From Cyanobium sp. FACHB-13342 (GTDB lineage: Bacteria > Cyanobacteriota > Cyanobacteriia > PCC-6307 > Cyanobiaceae), in assembly GCF_014697415.1 (NCBI RefSeq), contig NZ_JACJRT010000011.1:62001-126000 (forward strand): a stretch of 64,000 bases of DNA, given 5' to 3'. The notes under the pieces are model-generated. The model was not told the DNA's origin, did no database searches, and saw only the letters and a program-made list of their open reading frames with translations. Position numbers and translations under genes: made by a program. The stretch's first letter is position 1; each line of letters starts with the position of its first letter. Of the stretch, positions 2,638-11,658 are shown piece after piece.

Positions 2638-3985
2638 CGACGCAGGCAGATCCATCGCCCCCCGATCCGGCCACAACCCTCACCGTATCAGCGATCTGGC
2701 CAGGCCAAAGCCGGGCCTGCTCCTGCAGCCAAACGGCCCGGGCCGAATCGATCCGCTCACCTGGCACCAGCAGGGGGATGCCGGGGGGGTAGGGGCAGAG
2801 CGGTTCAGCCGCGATCCGGCCAGCCGCCGCGGCCAGCGGCACCGTTTCGGCAGGAGCCCGCCAGGCCTGGCCGATCGGAAGCTCGGGTTCCGCCACCAGG
2901 GGCAGGGGCGGGGCACTGAAGGGCGGCAGGGGATGGCCCCCCAGGGCACGCCGCAGCCGCTGCAACTGGCGGGGCAGCCGCCACACCACCCCAACCGGCG
3001 GCCCCAGGCCCAGACAAAAGGTGAGCGCCCCCGGCTCGGGCAACTCGGCAATCACGCCCCGCTCCAGCAGCCAGGCATCGGCATCCAGACCATTGATCCC
3101 CAGGGCCGCCGTGTGCAGCACCAGCCGCAGGGGGTCGTCATTGGCCAGCAGGGGCAAGCCCGCCGCCAGACAGCGGCGACGCAGGCGCTCGCCGATCTGC
3201 TCCGCCCGGCGGCGGCGGTGGCGCCCCCCCGGGCTGGTGAGCTCCTGCAGGATCGCCTCGGCCGAGGCCAGCAACAGGGCACTGGGGCTCGAGGTCTGCA
3301 GCCACAGCAGGGCCCGGGCCACGGCAGCAGGATCGACCCGCTGCCCCTGGAGCAACAGGGCCGCGCTCTGGGCCAGGCCACCTCCGGCCTTCTGGCCGGA
3401 GAGCACCACCAGGTCGGCCCCAGCCCCCAGCGCCTCCCCACGGCCATGGGCCTGGTCCACCAGCACCGGCACCCCATGGCCGTGGGCCAGAGCCACTAGC
3501 GCCGGCAGATCGGCCCTTTGGCCCTGATAGCTGGGGGACACCAGCACCAGCGCCGCCACGGGACCGGCCGCCTTGAGGATGGCCGCCAGGTGGGCCGGGC
3601 CGGGCGGTCGCCACAGCCCCGTGGCCGGATCGAAGGGCAGGTCATACAGCAACGGCCGCACCTGGCCGAGCACGCAGGCGTGCAGCAGGGAGCGGTGCAG
3701 GTTGCGGGGCAGGAGCACCCGGCTGCCGGGGGGGGCCAGGGCCAGCAGGCCCGCCTGCAGCAGGCCACTGGCGCCATTGACGCCAAACCACACCGCCCCA
3801 GCACCGAGCTGGTGGGCACAACGCCGCTGGGCCTCGGCCACGGCACCGCTATCGATGAGGGGACCGCCAAACTCCGGCAGTTCCGGCAGGTCCCAGCGGC
3901 CCGGGCGCTGGCGCAGCAGGCGTTGCAGGGCGGGCGACAGCCCCCGTCCGCGGCCATGGGCCGGCAGATGCAGCGGCAGGCCCAT
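2609..3985 (-). CDS. Orn/Lys/Arg decarboxylase-like PLP enzyme
   Basis: This is a fold-type I PLP-dependent enzyme of the Orn/Lys/Arg decarboxylase group in its short cyanobacterial form, about 458 residues. It begins MGLPLHLPAHGRGRG, as these proteins do. VLVDQAHGRGEALGAG carries the cofactor-stacking Asp and His, and VVLSGQKAGGGLAQSAAL contains the Schiff-base Lys. The substrate (lysine, arginine or ornithine) cannot be read from sequence. The frame is open to an ATG at 4045, but that extension lies inside a 42-nt repeat and looks non-coding, so I chose 3985. It overlaps cbiT by about 29 bases. Confidence 0.8.
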   Translation of the reverse strand: MGLPLHLPAHGRGRGLSPALQRLLRQRPGRWDLPELPEFGGPLIDSGAVAEAQRRCAHQLGAGAVWFGVNGASGLLQAGLLALAPPGSRVLLPRNLHRSLLHACVLGQVRPLLYDLPFDPATGLWRPPGPAHLAAILKAAGPVAALVLVSPSYQGQRADLPALVALAHGHGVPVLVDQAHGRGEALGAGADLVVLSGQKAGGGLAQSAALLLQGQRVDPAAVARALLWLQTSSPSALLLASAEAILQELTSPGGRHRRRRAEQIGERLRRRCLAAGLPLLANDDPLRLVLHTAALGINGLDADAWLLERGVIAELPEPGALTFCLGLGPPVGVVWRLPRQLQRLRRALGGHPLPPFSAPPLPLVAEPELPIGQAWRAPAETVPLAAAAGRIAAEPLCPYPPGIPLLVPGERIDSARAVWLQEQARLWPGQIADTVRVVAGSGGDGSACVDESPAIGGS

Positions 3986-4007
3986 GGACGAGCAGATCAC
4001 GTGGCTT

Positions 4008-4049
4008 GAGTCTGCCGATCGACCGGCTGCCGTGCCCAGAACCATCGCC
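4008..4049 (+). repeat. 42-nt direct repeat, copy 1 (left of pLGIC/SBP pair 1)
   Basis: These 42 bases match 6507-6548 at 37 positions by eye, in the same orientation. The core CCGGCTGCCGTGCCC is identical in both. The copy at 6507 spans the probable GTG start of the ABC1 kinase. This copy lies in the gap between the decarboxylase start and the 3' end of the first pLGIC-like gene and leads into no kinase. The two copies bracket pair 1 exactly, as expected if that pair was inserted with a duplication of the decarboxylase-kinase intergenic sequence. Confidence 0.75.
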
Positions 4050-4068: not shown

Positions 4069-5292
4069 TCAGGCCCCGGGCGGAATCGTGAACCAGGCCA
4101 CGGCAATCGCCAGGCTGCTGAAGAGCACCACCACCACGGGCCAGCTGTTATCCAGATGCTCGAGCCGCCCCCTCAACGCGGCTTGGGCCGCGGGATCCTC
4201 CATCGCCTCCATGTCGGCATAGCGACGGCCAATCCAAATCACCAACACAAAAGCCACCAGGGTGACCACATAGGCCACCACATACACCTGATCGAGGAAG
4301 GTGAGGAACGGAAGAACGGGCAGATCACTGCGATAGGTCTGCTGCAGGAAGACCAACGTCAGCAACACCGTGACCGGGATGCTGGCGCGGGCATCCTGTT
4401 CATCCGGGCGCACCTTGAACACCAGCAACACCATCGCCATCAGCACCACCAGGGGCAGCAACAACCGCCACACCGCAGCCCAGGCGGAGGTGCCAAAGGA
4501 CATCTCGTACAACACCAGGCTGTAATCACTTTCACCACCCCCTTGGCCAAAACTGGTGGCGTACTGGTGGCGGTATTCAGCAATCGACCAGCCCTGGTTC
4601 AACCAGCCCAGGATGCGGGCATTGAACCCCATGCCACTGTCACGAATGTCGGGCTCAAGCCGCAGCTGGTTGTAGCTGAGGCTGCCATCCACGTCGTCGG
4701 CCTCGATGAACAACGGGAGACTGATGCTCATAAAGGGGTAATGGCGAAAGCTCGCCTGATCGAGCAGATAGCGGCCGCGGTAGGTGAACAGTTGGTAATA
4801 CCCCCCATCGGCACGCCGCTCGGGGCCTTCACCCACCGGATTGAGCTCGGGTGGGGCGTCGGTGATCAGGGTGTTGAGCAGGGTGAAGCGCTGATCAATC
4901 GCGATACCTGCCGCATCGAGATAGCGCTGAAGGGGCTCATCCCAGATCAACCAGATGTAGCCACTGGAGGCAAAACTGGGAACGCTCAGATCGAGCTCGG
5001 AAGCGGTATTGGCGTAGACCCCAACCTGGGCCCGATAGGGGGCTGTGGCCAACGCCTCCTGATCCACCTTGGCCTCACCGGCATTGAGCAGGTCACCCCG
5101 CAGGGTGGTCCAGCCACTGGCGGGCAAGTGATCCGGATCGATGGTGAGGGATCGAGCTGAGGTGGACAGCCGCAGGGCATCCCGGGTCTGGACCGGTTTG
5201 ATGTCGATGCGCGTGATCGCAATCAAGGCCAGAATCACCGCCAGCAGGAGCGACAATGTGGCGAGCAGATTCCAGCGCCGCTGCTTCCGCAC
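4069..5292 (-). CDS. pentameric ligand-gated ion channel-like protein, copy 1
   Basis: This 407-residue protein has the layout of a prokaryotic pLGIC. An N-terminal hydrophobic anchor (about 9-28) is followed by an extra region and a beta-rich domain (about 95-270). Within it, SFRHYPFMSISLPL at 181-194 resembles the Pro-loop, although the usual Asp after Pro-Phe is Met. Four membrane segments follow at about 275-293, 302-320, 333-355 and 384-403. The M2-M3 stretch ASIPVTVLLTLVFL, then SDLPVLPFLTFLDQVY, recalls the GLIC M2-M3 region with its LPxxPYxTY loop. The start is GTG at 5292, only 16 bases from the divergent binding-protein start. Channel activity and ligand are inferred, not shown. Copy 2 is at 8209-9444. 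Confidence 0.68.
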   Translation of the reverse strand: MRKQRRWNLLATLSLLLAVILALIAITRIDIKPVQTRDALRLSTSARSLTIDPDHLPASGWTTLRGDLLNAGEAKVDQEALATAPYRAQVGVYANTASELDLSVPSFASSGYIWLIWDEPLQRYLDAAGIAIDQRFTLLNTLITDAPPELNPVGEGPERRADGGYYQLFTYRGRYLLDQASFRHYPFMSISLPLFIEADDVDGSLSYNQLRLEPDIRDSGMGFNARILGWLNQGWSIAEYRHQYATSFGQGGGESDYSLVLYEMSFGTSAWAAVWRLLLPLVVLMAMVLLVFKVRPDEQDARASIPVTVLLTLVFLQQTYRSDLPVLPFLTFLDQVYVVAYVVTLVAFVLVIWIGRRYADMEAMEDPAAQAALRGRLEHLDNSWPVVVVLFSSLAIAVAWFTIPPGA

Positions 5293-5308
5293 TGGTTTCA
5301 GGAGGCCG

Positions 5309-6472
5309 GTGATCCCGAGATTACGCGCCAGACGCAGATTTGCCCTGCTACTGCTACCGCTTCTGGCACCGTTGTTGGTGCGATCGGCACCGGCAGCGCG
5401 GCAACCTGCTCAGGCGCCCCAAGAGCTGGTGATCGGCCAGTCGGCCCCGTTCAGCGGGCCCTCCGCCCAAACGGCCAGGGACTACCAGGAAGGCTTGCTC
5501 GCCTGGTTTGCCGACGTGAACCGGCGCGGGGGGATCCACGGCCGGCGGTTGCGCCTGGTGAGCCTGGATGACCGCTACGACCCGAAACTCACCCTGCGCA
5601 ACACACGCCAGCTGGTGGAACAACAGCAGGCCATCGCCCTGATCGGCTACTTCGGCACGGCCAACTCCAAGGCCGTTCTTCCCTTGGTGGAGAGGGTGGG
5701 CATCCCCTACGTGGCGCCGCGCACCGGGGCAAAGGCCGTGCTGAAACCCTTTCGTCCGATGGTGTTCAACCTGCGGGCCAGCTACCAGGCCGAGATCGAT
5801 CGGGTGATCGACCAACTGGTGCGCGATGGCCGCCACCAGGTGGCGGTGGTGCACATCACCGATGCCTACGGAGAAGACGGTCTGCGCTCCAGCCAGGTGG
5901 CCCTGGCCCGCCATGGCCTGCGGCCGGTGGCGATTGCCGGGGTCCAGCGCAACTCGACCAACACGGACGCCGCGGCTCGAAAGGTGCTGGCCGCCCAGGC
6001 CAATGCCGTGCTGGTGATCGCCACCTTCACCACCTCCGCCTCCCTGACGCGCGACCTGTCCCGACTCGGCAGCAGGGCCCAACTGATGAACCTCTCGCCG
6101 GTCGGGATCGAGGGCTTGCAAGATGCCTTGCCCGGGGGCCAGGCCAATGGCATCGGCATCTCCCAGGTGGTTCCCTTCCCCTGGAACCGGAGGGTCCCAC
6201 TGGTGGCCCAGTACCAGCAGCTGATGCAGCGGCAGCAAGGGGAGGCCCGCTACGGCTACACGAGCCTGGAGGGGTTCCTGGCTGCCCGCTGGCTCACCGC
6301 CGCCCTGGACAAAGCTGGACCCGACCCCAGTCGCGCCAAGGTGGTGGGGGCCTTCCGCAGCCTGAAGTCCCTCGACCTGGGCGGCTTCAAGGTGCAGCTC
6401 GGGCCGGGCGACAACCAGGCCAGTGATCTGGTGGAGCTCACCTTTCTCGGTTCCCAACGCTGGGGGCCCTGA
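5309..6472 (+). CDS. periplasmic Leu/Ile/Val-type substrate-binding protein, copy 1
   Basis: The protein is a type I periplasmic-binding fold (Peripla_BP_6/ANF receptor group) of about 387 residues. A basic n-region (IPRLRARRR) and hydrophobic core (FALLLLPLLAPLLV) form a signal peptide. The mature part opens with VIGQSAPFSGPSAQTARDY and contains NRRGGIHGRRLRLVSLDDRY, both typical of LivJ-like proteins. GTG at 5309 is my chosen start because it places the signal peptide at the N-terminus; a purine-rich AGGAGG sits close upstream. No permease or ATPase gene is nearby. That makes it an orphan binding protein, paired divergently with the pLGIC-like gene and possibly acting as its ligand-binding partner. 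Confidence 0.82.
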   Translation: MIPRLRARRRFALLLLPLLAPLLVRSAPAARQPAQAPQELVIGQSAPFSGPSAQTARDYQEGLLAWFADVNRRGGIHGRRLRLVSLDDRYDPKLTLRNTRQLVEQQQAIALIGYFGTANSKAVLPLVERVGIPYVAPRTGAKAVLKPFRPMVFNLRASYQAEIDRVIDQLVRDGRHQVAVVHITDAYGEDGLRSSQVALARHGLRPVAIAGVQRNSTNTDAAARKVLAAQANAVLVIATFTTSASLTRDLSRLGSRAQLMNLSPVGIEGLQDALPGGQANGIGISQVVPFPWNRRVPLVAQYQQLMQRQQGEARYGYTSLEGFLAARWLTAALDKAGPDPSRAKVVGAFRSLKSLDLGGFKVQLGPGDNQASDLVELTFLGSQRWGP

Positions 6473-6506
6473 GTTCCCACCCTTGGGCAGGCGGATCGCG
6501 TTTCTA

Positions 6507-6548
6507 GAGTCTGTCGATCGTCCGGCTGCCGTGCCCGTGACCATCGCC
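6507..6548 (+). repeat. 42-nt direct repeat, copy 2 (overlaps ABC1 kinase start)
   Basis: This is the second copy of the repeat at 4008-4049, with 37 of 42 positions identical by eye. It covers the upstream region and the first codons of the ABC1 kinase (GTG at 6531). This copy therefore looks like the original kinase leader, and the one at 4008 like a left-over duplicate at the far end of the inserted pair. Confidence 0.75.
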
Positions 6549-8204
6549 GATGCCGCCAGCAGGCCGCGCTACGACCCTGGCCGGGATCTGAGCTGGCTGC
6601 TGCTGCGCCCGTGGGTGCTGGTGAGTCGTCTGCTGGTGGTGCTCTGGCAGCTCGGCAGCCTGGCCCTGGTGCTGGTGGTGCAGGGCAACAGCACCAGCAC
6701 CGAGGTGCAGCAACAGCTGGGGCGCCGCATCCTCACCACCCTCACCGCCCTCGGCCCCTGCTTCATCAAGGTGGGCCAGGCCCTCTCCACCCGCCCCGAC
6801 CTGGTGCGGCGCGACTGGCTCGAACAGCTCACCCAGCTGCAGGACAACCTGCCCCCCTTCCCCCACGCCATCGCCCTGGCCACGATCGAGCGGGAGTTGG
6901 GCGCTCCGGCCGATCAGCTCTTCGAGCAGTTCCCCGACTACCCCGTGGCTGCCGCCAGCCTGGGGCAGGTGTACAAGGCCCAGCTCGCCGATGGCCACTG
7001 GGTGGCCGTGAAGGTGCAGCGTCCCAACCTGCCCACGATTCTGCGGCGGGATCTGGTGATCATCCGGCTGCTGGGGGTGCTCACGGCCCCGTTCCTGCCG
7101 CTCAACCTGGGCTTCGGGCTGGGCGACATCATCGATGAATTCGGCTCCACCCTGTTTGAGGAGATCGACTACCGGCTCGAGGCCAACAACGCCGAGCGGT
7201 TCGCCGATCTGTTCGCTGCCCAGCCGGAGGTGACGGTGCCCCGGGTGGAGCGGCTGCTCTCCAGCGAACACGTGCTCACCACCCAGTGGATCAATGGCAC
7301 GAAGCTGCAGGAACGCCAGGCCCTGGAGGCCCGCAACCTGGATCCGGCTGCCCTGATCCGCACTGGGGTGATCGCGGGCCTGCAGCAACTGCTGGAATTT
7401 GGCTACTTCCACGCCGATCCCCACCCCGGCAACCTGTTTGCCCTCTCCGGCAAAACCGGGGCCCTGGGCCACGTGGCCTACGTGGATTTCGGGATGATGG
7501 ATTCGATCAGCGACAGCGATCGCCTCACCCTCACCGGGGCCGTGGTGCACCTGATCAACCGGGATTTCCGCTCCCTCGCCAGGGACTTTGTGACCCTGGG
7601 ATTCCTCAATCCCAAGGCCGATCTGGACCCGATCGTGCCCGCCCTGGAAGAAGTGCTGGGGGGGGCCCTGGGGGACAACGTGGGCTCCTTCAACTTCAAG
7701 GCGATCACCGATCGCTTTTCGGAGTTGATGTATGCCTACCCCTTCCGGGTGCCGGCCCGCTTCGCCCTGATCATCCGGGCCGTGGTGAGCCAGGAGGGCC
7801 TGGCCCTGCGACTGGATCCCAGCTTCAAGATCATCAACGTGGCCTATCCCTACGTGGCCCGCCGGCTGCTGGCCGGGGACACCAGCGAGATGCGCGACAA
7901 GCTGCTCGAGGTGCTGTTCGATCGGGAGGGTCGACTGCGGATCGAACGGCTGGAAAACCTGCTGGCCGTGGTGGAGAACGACAGCACCAGCCCGAACCTG
8001 CTGCCGGTGGCTGGGGCGGGCCTGAAATTGCTGCTGGGGCCAGGGGGCAGCAGCCTGCGGCAGCGGCTGCTGCTCACGCTGGTGCAGGGCGATCGGCTCC
8101 ACACCGACGACCTGCGCGCCCTCCTGAACCTGATGGGTCGCACCTTCAGCCCCCGCAAACTCGTGGGTGGCATGCTCTCCCGGCTGTCGCCACTGGCGGC
8201 CTGA
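6531..8204 (+). CDS. ABC1/AarF/UbiB family atypical kinase
   Basis: ABC1/UbiB proteins are atypical protein-kinase-like ATPases tied to quinone and prenyl-lipid metabolism in bacteria and plastids. The roughly 557-residue product starts with a membrane-near region and the family KxGQ signature (CFIKVGQALSTRPDL). It then has AAASLGQVYKAQLADG, the Ala-rich nucleotide loop, VAVKVQRP with the kinase Lys, HADPHPGNLF and YVDFGMMDSI (catalytic and metal-binding loops). Two C-terminal hydrophobic segments are possible. GTG at 6531 gives a sensible N-terminus; GTG 6537 is an alternative, and the frame upstream to 6423 overlaps the binding-protein gene. Confidence 0.92.
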   Translation: MPVTIADAASRPRYDPGRDLSWLLLRPWVLVSRLLVVLWQLGSLALVLVVQGNSTSTEVQQQLGRRILTTLTALGPCFIKVGQALSTRPDLVRRDWLEQLTQLQDNLPPFPHAIALATIERELGAPADQLFEQFPDYPVAAASLGQVYKAQLADGHWVAVKVQRPNLPTILRRDLVIIRLLGVLTAPFLPLNLGFGLGDIIDEFGSTLFEEIDYRLEANNAERFADLFAAQPEVTVPRVERLLSSEHVLTTQWINGTKLQERQALEARNLDPAALIRTGVIAGLQQLLEFGYFHADPHPGNLFALSGKTGALGHVAYVDFGMMDSISDSDRLTLTGAVVHLINRDFRSLARDFVTLGFLNPKADLDPIVPALEEVLGGALGDNVGSFNFKAITDRFSELMYAYPFRVPARFALIIRAVVSQEGLALRLDPSFKIINVAYPYVARRLLAGDTSEMRDKLLEVLFDREGRLRIERLENLLAVVENDSTSPNLLPVAGAGLKLLLGPGGSSLRQRLLLTLVQGDRLHTDDLRALLNLMGRTFSPRKLVGGMLSRLSPLAA

Positions 8205-8208
8205 GCCT

Positions 8209-9444
8209 TCAAATCACCTGGGGAATCGTGATCCAGCAGAAGGTGATGGCGGCTCCTCCCAGGAGCACCACCACCAAGGGCCAGGTGTCATCGAGGCGAT
8301 GCAGGTGACGCTGGAGGGCCTCCTTGGCAACAGGATCCTCCATCGTTTCCATGACGGCGTAGCGACGGCCAATCCAAAGCACCAACACAAAGGCCGCCAA
8401 GGTGACCACATAGGCCACCACATACACCTGATCCAAAAAGGTGAGGAAGGGCAGATTCGGCAGTTGGTCGCGATAGGTCTGCTGTAGGAAAACCAGGGTC
8501 AACAGCACGGTGACCGGGATACTCGCGCGGGCATCCTGTTCATCTGGACGCACCTTGAACACCAGCAACACCATCGTCATCAGCACGGCCAAGGGCAGCA
8601 GCAGCCGCCAGAAGGACGACCAGGAGGAGGTGCCGTAGGAGATCTCAAATAGAATCTGGCTGTAGTCGTTTTCCTCCCCACCCAGGCCGAAGTTGGTGGC
8701 GTAGTGGTGGCGGTATTCGGCGATCGACCAGCCCGTGTTGAGCCAGCCGATGATGCGGGCATAGAGGCCCATGCCGCTGTTGCGGATTTCGGGAATCAGG
8801 CGGAGATTGCGATAGCCCAGTTGACCATCCACATCATTGGCCTCAATCACCAGCGGCAGGCTGATGGTCATGAAGGGATAGTGACGGAAACTGGCCCGAT
8901 CGACGTAGTAACGGCCGATGTAGGTAAAAAGCTGGTAATAACTGCCATCAGCCAATTTGATCGGGCCCGCGCCCACCGGAGCGAGACTTGAATCCTTATC
9001 TGAAAGCAGCGTGTTCAAGACAATGAAGAAACTGGAGATATCACCCCCACGACTCTCCACATAGCGCTGCATGGGCTCCTCCCAGCGCAGCCACACATAG
9101 CCACTGCTGGAATAGCTGGGCACCGTGAGATCGAGCTCGTAATTGCTGGTGGAGTACACCCCCACCTGCACCTTGTAGGGAGCCTGCTCCAACTCGGCGC
9201 GATCGACCCGCTCCTCCCCAGCGCTGAGTTGATCGCCCCGCATGGCGCTCCAGACGCCGATGGGGGGCTTCTCGCCCAGGGGCAGGGTGGTGAGGGCGCG
9301 CGAGGCCGAAGACAGGCGCAGGGCATCCCGGCTCTGCACCGGACTCACGTCAATGCGGCTGATCCCAAGAATGGCCAGGATGGCAGCCAGAACAACGGCC
9401 ACCATCGCCAAAACGTTCCACGGCCTTTGCCTGCGCTGCCCCAT
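8209..9444 (-). CDS. pentameric ligand-gated ion channel-like protein, copy 2
   Basis: This 411-residue paralogue of the protein at 4069-5292 has the same architecture: N-terminal anchor (VLAMVAVVLAAILAILGI), beta-rich domain with SFRHYPFMTISLPL, and four membrane segments. About 30 residues entering and spanning M2 are the same in both copies, from VFKVRPDEQDARASIPVT to LVFLQQTYR. The N-terminal receptor domain and the M4 end differ more. That pattern fits conserved pore function with diverging ligand recognition, which is inference. The start is ATG at 9444, divergent from the binding protein, and the 3' end abuts the ABC1 kinase stop by 4 bases. Family assignment rests on motif resemblance to GLIC/ELIC-type channels. 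Confidence 0.68.
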   Translation of the reverse strand: MGQRRQRPWNVLAMVAVVLAAILAILGISRIDVSPVQSRDALRLSSASRALTTLPLGEKPPIGVWSAMRGDQLSAGEERVDRAELEQAPYKVQVGVYSTSNYELDLTVPSYSSSGYVWLRWEEPMQRYVESRGGDISSFFIVLNTLLSDKDSSLAPVGAGPIKLADGSYYQLFTYIGRYYVDRASFRHYPFMTISLPLVIEANDVDGQLGYRNLRLIPEIRNSGMGLYARIIGWLNTGWSIAEYRHHYATNFGLGGEENDYSQILFEISYGTSSWSSFWRLLLPLAVLMTMVLLVFKVRPDEQDARASIPVTVLLTLVFLQQTYRDQLPNLPFLTFLDQVYVVAYVVTLAAFVLVLWIGRRYAVMETMEDPVAKEALQRHLHRLDDTWPLVVVLLGGAAITFCWITIPQVI

Positions 9445-9505
9445 GCCAAGCCGCTGCTGTGCCCCGAAGTTAAAGCTGAACAGCGGGCATCAGCCAGGGG
9501 CGGCG

Positions 9506-10651
9506 ATGGGTGTGCTCGGACTCACCCTGGCCCTGGCACTCCCGGCTCTCCCCGCCCTGGGCGCCGCCGATCCCCAACCCCGCCCCAAACCCACGCCGGC
9601 GCCACTGGTGCTGGGCCAGTCAGCCCCCTTCAGCGGCCCCTCCGCCCTGCTCGGGCAGGAATATCGAGACGGGGCCCTGGCCTACTTCGCCGAGGTGAAT
9701 CGCCGGGGCGGCATCCATGGCAAGCGGCTGAAGCTGGTCAGCCTCGACGACCGCTACGAGCCACCCCTGACCCTGCGCAACACCCGGCAGCTGATCGAGC
9801 GCGACAAGGTGTTCGCCCTGTTCGGCTATGTGGGGACCCCCACCGTCAAAGCGGTACTGCCCCTGGTGGAGAGCGCCAAGATCCCGCTGATCGCCCCCCT
9901 CACCGGGGCCCAGCTGCTGCGCCAGCCCCACCGGCCGATGGTGTTCAACCTGCGCGCCAGCTACCACCAGGAAATGGACCGGATGGTGAATGACCTGGTG
10001 CGCAGCGGTCGCCATCGAATCGCCGTGGTTGTTCAAAATGATGCCTTCGGCCAGGACGGGCTCAAAGGCGCCCTCAAGGCCCTGAAGCGTCACGGCCTCA
10101 AGCCGGTGGCCACAGCGAGGGTGGAGCGCAACTCCACCCAGACGGGTGGGGCCGTGCGCACGGTGCAGCAGGCCAATGCCAACGCCGTGTTGATCGTGGC
10201 CGCCTACCCCAGCTCCGCCTCCTTCAGCCGCGACATGCACCGGCAGGGCAGCACCGCCCAGCTGATGAATGTGTCCTTTGTGGGCACGAGCGCCCTGAGG
10301 GCCTCCCTGCAGAGCCACGAAGCCAGCGGCATCGGCGTGGCCCAGGTGGTGCCCTTCCCCTGGAATGAGCGGGTGCCGGTGGTGCGCGAATACCAGCAGC
10401 TGATGCGGCGCCAACAGGCCAAACCGCACTTCGGCTTCTCCAGCCTGGAGGGCTTTCTGGCCGCCAAGATGACGGTGGAGGGCCTGCGCCGGGCGGGGCC
10501 TTCCCCAACCCGCCAGCGGTTTGTGACAGCCCTGGAAACGATGGGCAATGTCGACCTCGGCGGGTACCGGGTGCAACTGGGCCCCAACGACCACAACGGC
10601 AGCCATTACGTGGATCTCACCTTTCTGGGCTCCCAGCGCTGGGAGCCCTGA
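9506..10651 (+). CDS. periplasmic Leu/Ile/Val-type substrate-binding protein, copy 2
   Basis: A paralogue of the binding protein at 5309-6472, with matching blocks along its length: VLGQSAPFSGPSALL, RGGIHGKRLKLVSLDDRY, RPMVFNLRASY and VVPFPWNERVPVV. ATG at 9506 follows AGGGG and gives a short signal peptide (GVLGLTLALALPALPALGAA). ATG at 9443 is an alternative that would add basic residues but would overlap the divergent channel gene start. There are no ABC permease or ATPase genes in the neighbourhood. Both copies keep the same divergent pairing with a pLGIC-like gene, which points to a joint function. Confidence 0.8.
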   Translation: MGVLGLTLALALPALPALGAADPQPRPKPTPAPLVLGQSAPFSGPSALLGQEYRDGALAYFAEVNRRGGIHGKRLKLVSLDDRYEPPLTLRNTRQLIERDKVFALFGYVGTPTVKAVLPLVESAKIPLIAPLTGAQLLRQPHRPMVFNLRASYHQEMDRMVNDLVRSGRHRIAVVVQNDAFGQDGLKGALKALKRHGLKPVATARVERNSTQTGGAVRTVQQANANAVLIVAAYPSSASFSRDMHRQGSTAQLMNVSFVGTSALRASLQSHEASGIGVAQVVPFPWNERVPVVREYQQLMRRQQAKPHFGFSSLEGFLAAKMTVEGLRRAGPSPTRQRFVTALETMGNVDLGGYRVQLGPNDHNGSHYVDLTFLGSQRWEP

Positions 10652-10679: not shown

Positions 10680-11150
10680 ATGCTGCCGATGGCCAGCCTG
10701 CCGCCCGATCTGCCACCCGACCTGGCCGAGGGCTGGATGTTTGGCGACCTGGATTCCAGCGACATCCTGCTGGAATACGCCCAAATCATGCAGCCGCCCT
10801 ACCTGGTGGCGGGTGTGGGCTTGGCGATCGGCGTGCTCTGCGGCCTCACCTTCGCCAAGCTGGTGCAGAACCGGCTGGAAGGCTGGAAACAGGATCGCCT
10901 GGCCCTGCTGCCCCTGGGCACCCTGGCCATCACCCTGCCCTACATCGGCGTGGTACTCGGCATCACCCTGTTCATCGGCGGCAGCCTGCAGGTGTTTGGC
11001 TTCTCCGCCGGGGTGGCCTTGCTGGTGTCCTTTGTGCTGTCCATCGCCACGGCCGGAGCCCTGTGGGTTCAGCTGGAGCGACTGATGGGTCAGGTGGAAG
11101 ATGGAACCTTCAGCGCCGTTGATTTCGACAACTTCGACCAGTTCTTCTGA
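10680..11150 (+). CDS. small integral membrane protein, unidentified
   Basis: I do not recognise this 156-residue protein. It has an acidic, proline-rich N-terminus (ASLPPDLPPDLAEG) and three to four hydrophobic stretches: VAGVGLAIGVLCGLTFA, LGTLAITLPYIGVVLGITLF and FSAGVALLVSFVLSIATAGA. The tail is acidic and aromatic, ending FDNFDQFF. The ATG at 10680 is the first sensible start after the binding-protein stop 28 bases upstream. It is followed at 5 and then 5 bases by two further membrane-protein genes, so the three form an apparent operon, possibly read through from the binding-protein gene. Confidence 0.65.
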   Translation: MLPMASLPPDLPPDLAEGWMFGDLDSSDILLEYAQIMQPPYLVAGVGLAIGVLCGLTFAKLVQNRLEGWKQDRLALLPLGTLAITLPYIGVVLGITLFIGGSLQVFGFSAGVALLVSFVLSIATAGALWVQLERLMGQVEDGTFSAVDFDNFDQFF

Positions 11151-11154
11151 ACCC

Positions 11155-11658
11155 ATGCCCAGATTCTTTCGGATCGGCATCTTTACGGGGGTCGTAGGGC
11201 TGGTGGTGGCCACCGGGCTTGTCTTTTCCCTGGCCGCGCTGCGGATGGCCAAGGTGGGGGAAAACATCCTCAGGGGCCAGGCCAGTTTTGCCGAAGAACT
11301 GGAAATGATTGGAACGGTCGACCTCCTATTGCTTGGGATTGGTATTTTGATTATTGCCGCTGGCATGATCAGCCTGACCATGCGAAACATCCCGATGCCT
11401 CGGGGGCTGCGGTTTCACGACCTCCATCAACTCAAGAGCACCTTTTCCAGCTTTTTGATTCTGATCATGGCCATTCTCTACCTGGAGAGCATGGCTTCCC
11501 TCAAGCAGATGGAGTTGAGCACCAAAAGCCAACCGGAAGCCCTGCTCTATGGAGGGCTTGGCTTTCTGGCGGTCACCATTGGCTTGGTGATCTTCCAGCG
11601 GAGCGGCCACCACCGCCCCCCACACGCCCCCCATCCATCCACCCACGAACAGGGCTGA
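11155..11658 (+). CDS. UPF0114/YqhA-like membrane protein
   Basis: The protein has 167 residues and four predicted membrane helices: IGIFTGVVGLVVATGLVF, LLLLGIGILIIAAGMISL, FSSFLILIMAILYLESMA and YGGLGFLAVTIGLVIF. The sequence TVDLLLLGIGILIIAAGM, then HDLHQLKSTFSSFLILIM, resembles the Asp-Leu-Leu-Leu and Leu-Lys-x-Lys helices of the UPF0114 (YqhA) family, whose function is not established. It begins 5 bases after the preceding membrane protein and sits 5 bases before the pore-like gene. The family assignment is by eye. Confidence 0.6.
   Translation: MPRFFRIGIFTGVVGLVVATGLVFSLAALRMAKVGENILRGQASFAEELEMIGTVDLLLLGIGILIIAAGMISLTMRNIPMPRGLRFHDLHQLKSTFSSFLILIMAILYLESMASLKQMELSTKSQPEALLYGGLGFLAVTIGLVIFQRSGHHRPPHAPHPSTHEQG

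Follow-up and report, generated by a model that had tools for sequence, protein, structure and literature searches.

Within a 64,000-nucleotide stretch of the Cyanobium sp. FACHB-13342 genome (contig NZ_JACJRT010000011.1, positions 62,001 to 126,000; hereafter the window), positions 4069 to 10651 hold two divergently oriented gene pairs, separated by the gene of an ABC1/UbiB-like kinase. Each pair joins a pentameric ligand-gated ion channel (pLGIC; CH1 and CH2) to a LivJ-type periplasmic binding protein (PBP1 and PBP2), and the four genes lie where an original prediction, made from the letters of the window, had placed them (Table 1). In pair 1 the starts of the channel and binding-protein open reading frames (ORFs) are only 16 bases apart. 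CH1 and CH2 are 66% identical over 405 columns and PBP1 and PBP2 59% over 356 columns, with the same value of 59% for the mature binding proteins. Taken by part, the channels share 64% of their residues in the receptor domain, 87% in M1–M3 and 92% in M2; the receptor domain does differ more than the pore, as predicted, but this does not itself show that there are two ligands. Comparison of the two window copies gives a dN/dS of about 0.26 between the channels and of about 0.34 between the binding proteins, at a dS of about 1. Judged by these ratios both channels and both binding proteins are under purifying selection, and the ratios are no proof of two ligands either. The nearest named relative of CH2 comes from Cyanobium sp. 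T1B-Tous (98%).

Table 1. Features of the two channel/binding-protein pairs and of their surroundings in the window.
Feature	Position	Strand	Basis or remark
pLGIC channel 1 (CH1), 407 aa	4069..5292	(-)	ORF, Pfam/NCBIfam scans, CH1-CH2 alignment
CH1 partner-tracking linker (N-terminal helix to receptor domain), RDALRLST motif	5050..5208	(-)	Alignment to CH2 linker
LivJ/HAAT-type periplasmic binding protein 1 (PBP1), divergent from CH1	5309..6472	(+)	ORF, Pfam
pLGIC channel 2 (CH2), 411 aa	8209..9444	(-)	phmmer, profile, AlphaFold2 model, fold matches
CH2 linker, residues 31-85	9190..9354	(-)	Conserved in paired channels: R39 D40 L42 R43 L44 R49 L51 R69 G70 L73 E77 D81
CH2 pore helix M2, residues about 302-327; D304, R306 at inner end	8464..8541	(-)	Alignment, profile, AlphaFold2 model
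LivJ/HAAT-type periplasmic binding protein 2 (PBP2), divergent from CH2	9506..10651	(+)	ORF, Pfam, fold
ABC1/UbiB-like atypical kinase ORF, neighbourhood gene outside conserved unit	6423..8204	(+)	ORF, Pfam, loci of relatives
69-nt copy of 6480-6548 (kinase 5' end), 79.7% identical; probable kinase relic	3981..4049	(+)	Repeat search, relatives
Small membrane protein M6	10689..11150	(+)	Adjoins binding protein in kinase/M6 neighbourhood only

Both channels are pLGICs, with homology that extends across the receptor and membrane domains. A phmmer search with CH2 reaches ELIC at 8.4e-8, and a profile built from 22 relatives matches ELIC with an E-value of 2.8e-14 (query positions 81–358) and GLIC with 1.7e-10. 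The AlphaFold2 single-chain model of CH2, with a mean predicted local distance difference test score (pLDDT) of 70, matches GLIC/ELIC in Foldseek at E 5e-18, with 15–20% identity in the structural matches, and GLIC and GluCl in VIA-align at Z 21. In this model the strands of the beta domain come first and are followed by four helices (274–297, 303–327, 336–366 and 371–405). The proline of the Pro-loop (P190) and residues L331, P332, T335 and F336 of the M2–M3 loop with its LPxxP motif are invariant in the 22-row alignment, and L328 nearly so. The hidden Markov model search suggested with the original prediction agrees in part: Pfam Neur_chan_memb scores 21.1 and 21.0 bits for the two channels, significant by E-value but below the curated cut-off, and the Pfam scan lists no Neur_chan_LBD match for either channel. 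NCBIfam LIC gives 2.1e-7 and 6.5e-7, also below its curated cut-off. Alignment and profile place D304 and R306 close to the inner pore mouth of CH2, which we take as a sign of probable cation selectivity. At the positions of ELIC E131 and F133, presumably the ELIC amine site, the residues of CH2 differ in the profile alignment; amine gating therefore cannot be read across from ELIC, and a ligand prediction from that site was dropped. The available text of PMC3119659 describes ELIC itself as activated by primary amines.

The partners score 176.5 (PBP1) and 211.2 bits (PBP2) with Peripla_BP_6, for which the cut-off is 31.7, and their divergent ORFs confirm the head-to-head arrangement with the channels. 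Their closest solved relatives are 3lop and 4kv7, at 34–35% identity in the structural match, and Foldseek matches to ligand-bound structures indicate that the type I binding-protein fold is kept. Both N-termini are hydrophobic by eye, and export is predicted.

We followed the pairing in two overlapping samples, 299 genomes of the order and 400 genomes of the family; the loci come partly from the same organism, so that locus counts are not organism counts. A channel match is present in 88 of the 299 genomes. Among channel matches at 48% identity or higher, a divergent binding protein stands beside 39 of the 44 in the order sample, a count that excludes two short fragments (G282:C285 and G296:C65:22252), and beside 52 of the 58 in the family sample, with 22–391 bases between the matches. 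The latter count includes partial matches and one channel with an internal stop (G672). L026, whose channel is spread over two frames, is scored as a paired locus. Of the six family-sample channels that lack the partner, G282 and G581 are cut by contig ends, and G046, G121, G051 and G042 are real exceptions. Conservation of the divergent pair, which the original prediction had put forward as a check, is thus solid. Related arrangements occur among more distant channels. A related channel clade, 39–42% identical, has its partner at the 3' end of the channel, tail to tail, in five of five cases. A distant clade (10 rows, 9 loci) is co-directional with a different binding protein, and the one tested, from L089, scores 416.7 bits with Peripla_BP_5. 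Eight further distant-channel loci inside the family have no binding-protein neighbour by the profile used. A third channel in the FACHB-13342 genome, 31% identical, has no LivJ-type binding-protein gene within the surrounding 3.9 kb that were read.

Channel and binding-protein trees share their named clades, with 8 and 8, 5 and 5, and 14 and 13 rows, the odd row being a contig-end cut. The channel tree omits exact duplicates and matches under 800 bases, and the binding-protein tree partners under 250 aa. Channel and binding-protein distances correlate with r = 0.84 over 39 pairs, a value reached in none of 2000 permutations, for which shared genome history could suffice. Three matches (L086_3819, L087_3813 and L089_14718), with a branch length of 8.2 in the channel tree, are in the count without partner and carry no claim; they are probably not pLGICs and reflect drift of the profile. 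Frames of about 800–900 codons had led us to suspect fused binding-protein–channel genes; one of them, L062, was read through and resembles a 5' extension of an ordinary channel frame, and the idea was given up.

Neighbourhoods were read for 46 rows. The pair lies in at least six different neighbourhoods; in six, the genes on both sides could be named or recognised at a second locus: kinase and M6/sigma factor; c22 (tyrosyl-tRNA synthetase-like by eye) and DUF1825; class V aminotransferase and CAX exchanger; M20 peptidase and SpoIIE-type phosphatase; UPF0047 and c128; and Mg-protoporphyrin methyltransferase and pseudouridine synthase. The ABC1/UbiB-like kinase, around which the arrangement had been thought noteworthy, is confined to the first of these and was not found in the others, so that the unit kept across neighbourhoods, in two orientations, is the pair alone. 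Sensing of amines by this pair, an idea taken from decarboxylase genes, was likewise not adopted, because none of the other neighbourhoods was found to share the Orn/Lys/Arg decarboxylase that lies next to CH1. Downstream of PBP2, positions 11101–11658 encode a UPF0114 membrane protein (33.4 bits against a cut-off of 23.1).

The segment of the channel between the N-terminal helix and the receptor domain, which we call the linker, changes with the presence of the partner. Twelve of its positions are conserved in paired channels (Table 1), and scoring row by row gave 11–13 conserved positions; channels with a Peripla_BP_5 partner are left out here, being too distant to align confidently. In the channel tree the partner-less G051, G121 and G042 form one clade. 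Their common losses are 5 of the 12 linker positions (R39, R43, L51, G70 and L73), compared with 1 of 60 in the receptor domain and 0 of 66 in M1–M3; taken singly, they have lost 6, 6 and 6 of 12, 3, 1 and 4 of 60, and 1, 0 and 3 of 66, respectively. G046, an independent loss of the partner in which the kinase and M6 neighbours remain and the binding protein alone is missing (locus L097), has lost 5 of 12 linker positions (L44P, R49E, R69Q, G70K and D81Q), 2 of 53 in the receptor domain and 0 of 60 in M1–M3. As a control, 41 paired rows scored alike have each lost 0–2 of 11–13 linker positions, and these include L072 and L093, whose nearest background rows are just 55% and 63% identical. Nine further paired channels, close kin of earlier rows, have lost none of the 12 (eight channels) or one (one channel), and a further unpaired channel, from a sister clade that adjoins a decarboxylase gene, has lost 6. 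The Fisher value for the linker, 8e-6, treats positions as independent and is a guide only. Linker codons vary freely, with R39 written in five codons and a mean codon entropy of 1.23 at 9 linker positions, compared with 1.07 at 34 receptor and 1.03 at 43 M1–M3 positions, which places the constraint on the protein. A channel segment that tracks the partner suggests a coupling of channel and binding protein and is new support for it.

Channel and binding protein likely work together, and a contact between them at the linker is a well-founded proposal from these comparisons. We consider it reasonably probable that each pair forms a two-part receptor, with a binding protein that, when loaded, engages the linker and gates the pLGIC pore. 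The binding protein would be exported and would capture a small solute in the periplasm; once loaded, it would engage a homopentameric pLGIC on its periplasmic side. The linker residues R39-D-x-L-R43-L ... R69-G70-x-x-L73 would belong to the contact site or to the channel region that relays the contact, and engagement would open or close a pore that is probably cation-selective. Export, docking, the direction of gating, the ion and the ligand are what we infer within this reading.

Several observations weigh against the two-part receptor. The original prediction had named, as findings that would count against it, a lack of pLGIC similarity and channels that occur freely without the binding protein. 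The similarity was found, but the four uncut channels of the paired clade (G046, G121, G051 and G042) do stand alone, with no partner match at E 1e-20 anywhere in their genomes. The sister clade adjoining the decarboxylase has no binding-protein partner, and outside the family, where 12 sampled genomes have a pLGIC match, the profile used found no binding-protein neighbour at the 10 loci read. The pairing is therefore lineage-specific and not obligatory. The convergent clade has lost 3 of 12 linker positions with its partner present (receptor 15 of 60, M1–M3 24 of 66), as has a further convergent-pair channel with 3 losses. The decarboxylase clade and the partner-less L073 have each lost 5 of 12, but both have diverged throughout (receptor 10 of 60 and 9 of 60, M1–M3 20 of 66 and 22 of 66, respectively) and, like the convergent clade, are less telling. 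Two clear losses of the partner underlie the linker signal, one of which is represented by a clade of three channels, and linker decay could follow a changed use of the channel and not a lost contact. The linker is also poorly defined in the single-chain model of CH2, with pLDDT below 50 at residues 29–71, as might be the case for a stretch that folds on its partner. Lastly, the Liv-type transporter of the FACHB-13342 genome could be fed by PBP1 and PBP2, and of the 15 pair-bearing genomes with only weak matches to the permease LivH, the seven tested each hold two or three matches to the permease family PF02653.

Of the other readings, the one that survives best, though we think it unlikely, is that the binding protein buffers free ligand or delivers it to the orthosteric site of the channel without contact, the 'preliminary concentration' proposed for other bacteria in the portion of Tasneem et al. 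2004 (PMC549065) available to us. It accounts for pairs of whatever orientation and for partners drawn from different binding-protein families, but it does not predict that the linker decays on loss of the partner while the receptor domain stays conserved.

It is improbable that the binding proteins serve an ATP-binding cassette (ABC) importer encoded elsewhere, as additional substrate-binding subunits, and are only co-regulated with the channel. The original prediction was right that no ABC permease or ATPase accompanies the pairs: a profile search found no PF02653 permease on the window's contig, and thus no adjacent cognate permease, and reading by eye showed no ATPase genes among the neighbouring ORFs. 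The genome as a whole, however, has three PF02653 matches, all off that contig; two of them lie in a Liv-type operon on contig C7, together with two ATPase-like ORFs (by eye). Among the 39 pair-bearing genomes, 22 hold a LivH relative at 61–100% identity, 15 give weak matches only and 2 none. Nine genomes with weak or no matches were tested further with PF02653, and seven of them have permeases, which probably belong to a urea-type transporter. Against an importer role, the Liv-type operon carries two binding proteins of its own, and such a role does not predict the linker pattern. In addition, two pair-bearing genomes, G065 and G095, keep their pairs with no match to PF02653, a profile that found 12 of 14 known genomes as a control. 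Both are closed, with one contig each, are listed as 99% complete, and belong to genus g5, probably marine Synechococcus. In either genome two proteins score high with Peripla_BP_6, and every one of them adjoins a pLGIC gene; a third match in G095 is barely above the cut-off (32.8 compared with 31.7 bits). As far as this profile tells, the paired binding proteins of these two genomes cannot serve a known importer of the PF02653 type.

That the partner serves the channel as a subunit for structure or assembly and binds no ligand itself is decidedly improbable. The partner's ligand is not known, which would suit such a role, but the type I fold is kept, and the use of different binding-protein families by different channel clades fits ligand recognition better. 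Very improbable, finally, is conservation of the linker at the DNA level, with a binding-protein promoter inside the 5' end of the channel that is freed on gene loss: the closely spaced starts of pair 1 mean that promoter elements could overlap the channel start, but the idea is largely refuted by the free codon variation, and it is also opposed by the convergent clade, which has its partner at the other end of the channel and keeps 9 of 12 linker positions, R39, R43 and G70 included.

The history of the locus is less simple than the repeats in the window suggest. The channel and binding-protein repeats are spaced 4140–4179 bases apart, and the stretch at 3981–4049 is probably the relic of a lost first kinase. 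The kinase-start stretch is single in the one-pair loci L008, L101 (one contig with L008), L023 and L100, where it lies by the kinase–decarboxylase junction, and occurs twice in the two-pair relative L022; this pattern and the repeat spacing fit a kinase–channel–binding-protein repeat whose first kinase was lost. By alignment the stretch is found in 5 of 64 relatives' loci, and its exact 30-base pattern in own-genome loci only. The true start of the kinase may lie further inside its ORF, as the alignment of relatives begins at residue 32–50 in 8 of 13 loci. Relatives at the kinase locus carry the CH1 type only, the CH2 type only, or both. CH1 and PBP1 group with pairs of other genera (SH-aLRT 99 and 97 in the channel and binding-protein trees), and neither gene tree joins the two pairs of the window, described in the original prediction as a duplicated pair, as nearest relatives. 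We therefore rejected a simple tandem duplication on the spot; the trees call either for an old duplication followed by losses or for two versions of the locus that merged. Elsewhere in the window, between 50000 and 62000, the GC content drops from about 0.65–0.74 to 0.40–0.53, and this stretch resembles a genomic island.

Related loci in other genomes add further observations. The sister pLGIC clade (L010:9888-15503, L027, L074, L075, L076, L081, L092 and L115, some from the same organism) lies in a same-strand run of pyridoxal phosphate-dependent decarboxylase, a membrane protein with no Pfam match (sensor-like by eye), a major facilitator superfamily transporter and the channel. The decarboxylase of L010, the only one tested, is above the NCBIfam histidine decarboxylase cut-off (369.7 compared with 305 bits), which suggests histamine as a candidate signal for this clade. 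Loci L102–L109 hold binding proteins of the same LivJ subfamily with no pLGIC, adjoining membrane proteins of one cluster, of which the one tested (L104) is Bestrophin-like (PF14023, 59.3 bits compared with 32); this raises the question of a second channel-like partner for the subfamily. In five g5 loci (L085:11742-12884 and L086–L089) the gene after the binding protein falls in a Ca2+/H+ exchanger cluster (TIGR00378, 326.5 bits compared with 211 for the one tested, L085). An UrtA-like binding protein of the FACHB-13342 genome (L187:5182-6453, G000:C6) is on a contig with no channel match, and an 82% identical relative (L139:4063-6523, G043) lies tail to tail with a channel of the third type. 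Probable remnants are a binding-protein fragment beside the channel at L073:4996-5121 (E 5e-5) and a degraded channel/binding-protein pair at L027:2139-2889.

The arrangement differs from those of known systems. Earlier links between bacterial pLGICs and binding proteins, to which the original prediction alluded, do exist: in the part available to us, Tasneem et al. 2004 (PMC549065) report fusions to type I periplasmic binding proteins (PBP-I) and free type II (PBP-II) and Cache neighbours, and suggest that such partners concentrate ligand. The acetylcholine receptor-type ligand-gated ion channels (ART-LGICs) of that work resemble the window pairs in the link of a pLGIC to a periplasmic binding protein and in the proposed concentrating or sensing of small solutes. 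They differ in that PBP-I is fused (in alpha-proteobacteria) or the free neighbour is PBP-II, and the cyanobacterial members are described there as having a simple architecture. In the window, the partner is encoded by a separate gene and is of type I, and such partners, divergent or convergent, occur family-wide with a partner-tracking linker. The word 'periplasmic' is absent from the available text of Jaiteh et al. 2016 (PMC4795631). DeCLIC, as far as the available texts tell (PMC12664993, PMC9897478), also has an extra periplasmic module that regulates a pLGIC, an N-terminal accessory domain, but that module is covalent and calcium-sensitive, whereas the partner here is a separate protein. 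GLIC and ELIC share the fold, Pro-loop, M1–M4 and LPxxPxT loop with the window channels and differ from them in the helix and linker ahead of the receptor domain. With the LivJ/LivK family the window proteins share binding-protein kinship, on a contig with no permease gene. In LuxP–LuxQ and TorT–TorS the periplasmic binding protein, once loaded, acts on a membrane receptor and not on a transporter; the receptor is a kinase there and an ion channel in the window. Our literature search found no report of channel/binding-protein pairing in picocyanobacteria, although most subscription papers were outside its coverage and it may be published. What is new here is that the partner is free and of type I, that it is conserved in a family, and that a channel segment tracks it.

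What bacterial pLGICs do, and which natural agonists act on these relatives of the human neurotransmitter receptors, are questions of long standing. The binding protein gives a practical starting point, as one can find its ligand and ask whether the loaded form gates the channel, and the linker motif names the residues to change. For picocyanobacteria more widely we propose, tentatively and with slightly more doubt than confidence, a modular receptor channel whose sensing subunit is an exchangeable, freely diffusing binding protein (LivJ-type or Peripla_BP_5) that docks outside the receptor domain, so that a bacterial pLGIC could be gated by a ligand carried on a protein as well as by a solute in the orthosteric site. 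If this is true, a receptor channel takes its ligand from a separate carrier protein, which could account for the difficulty of finding natural agonists for bacterial pLGICs.

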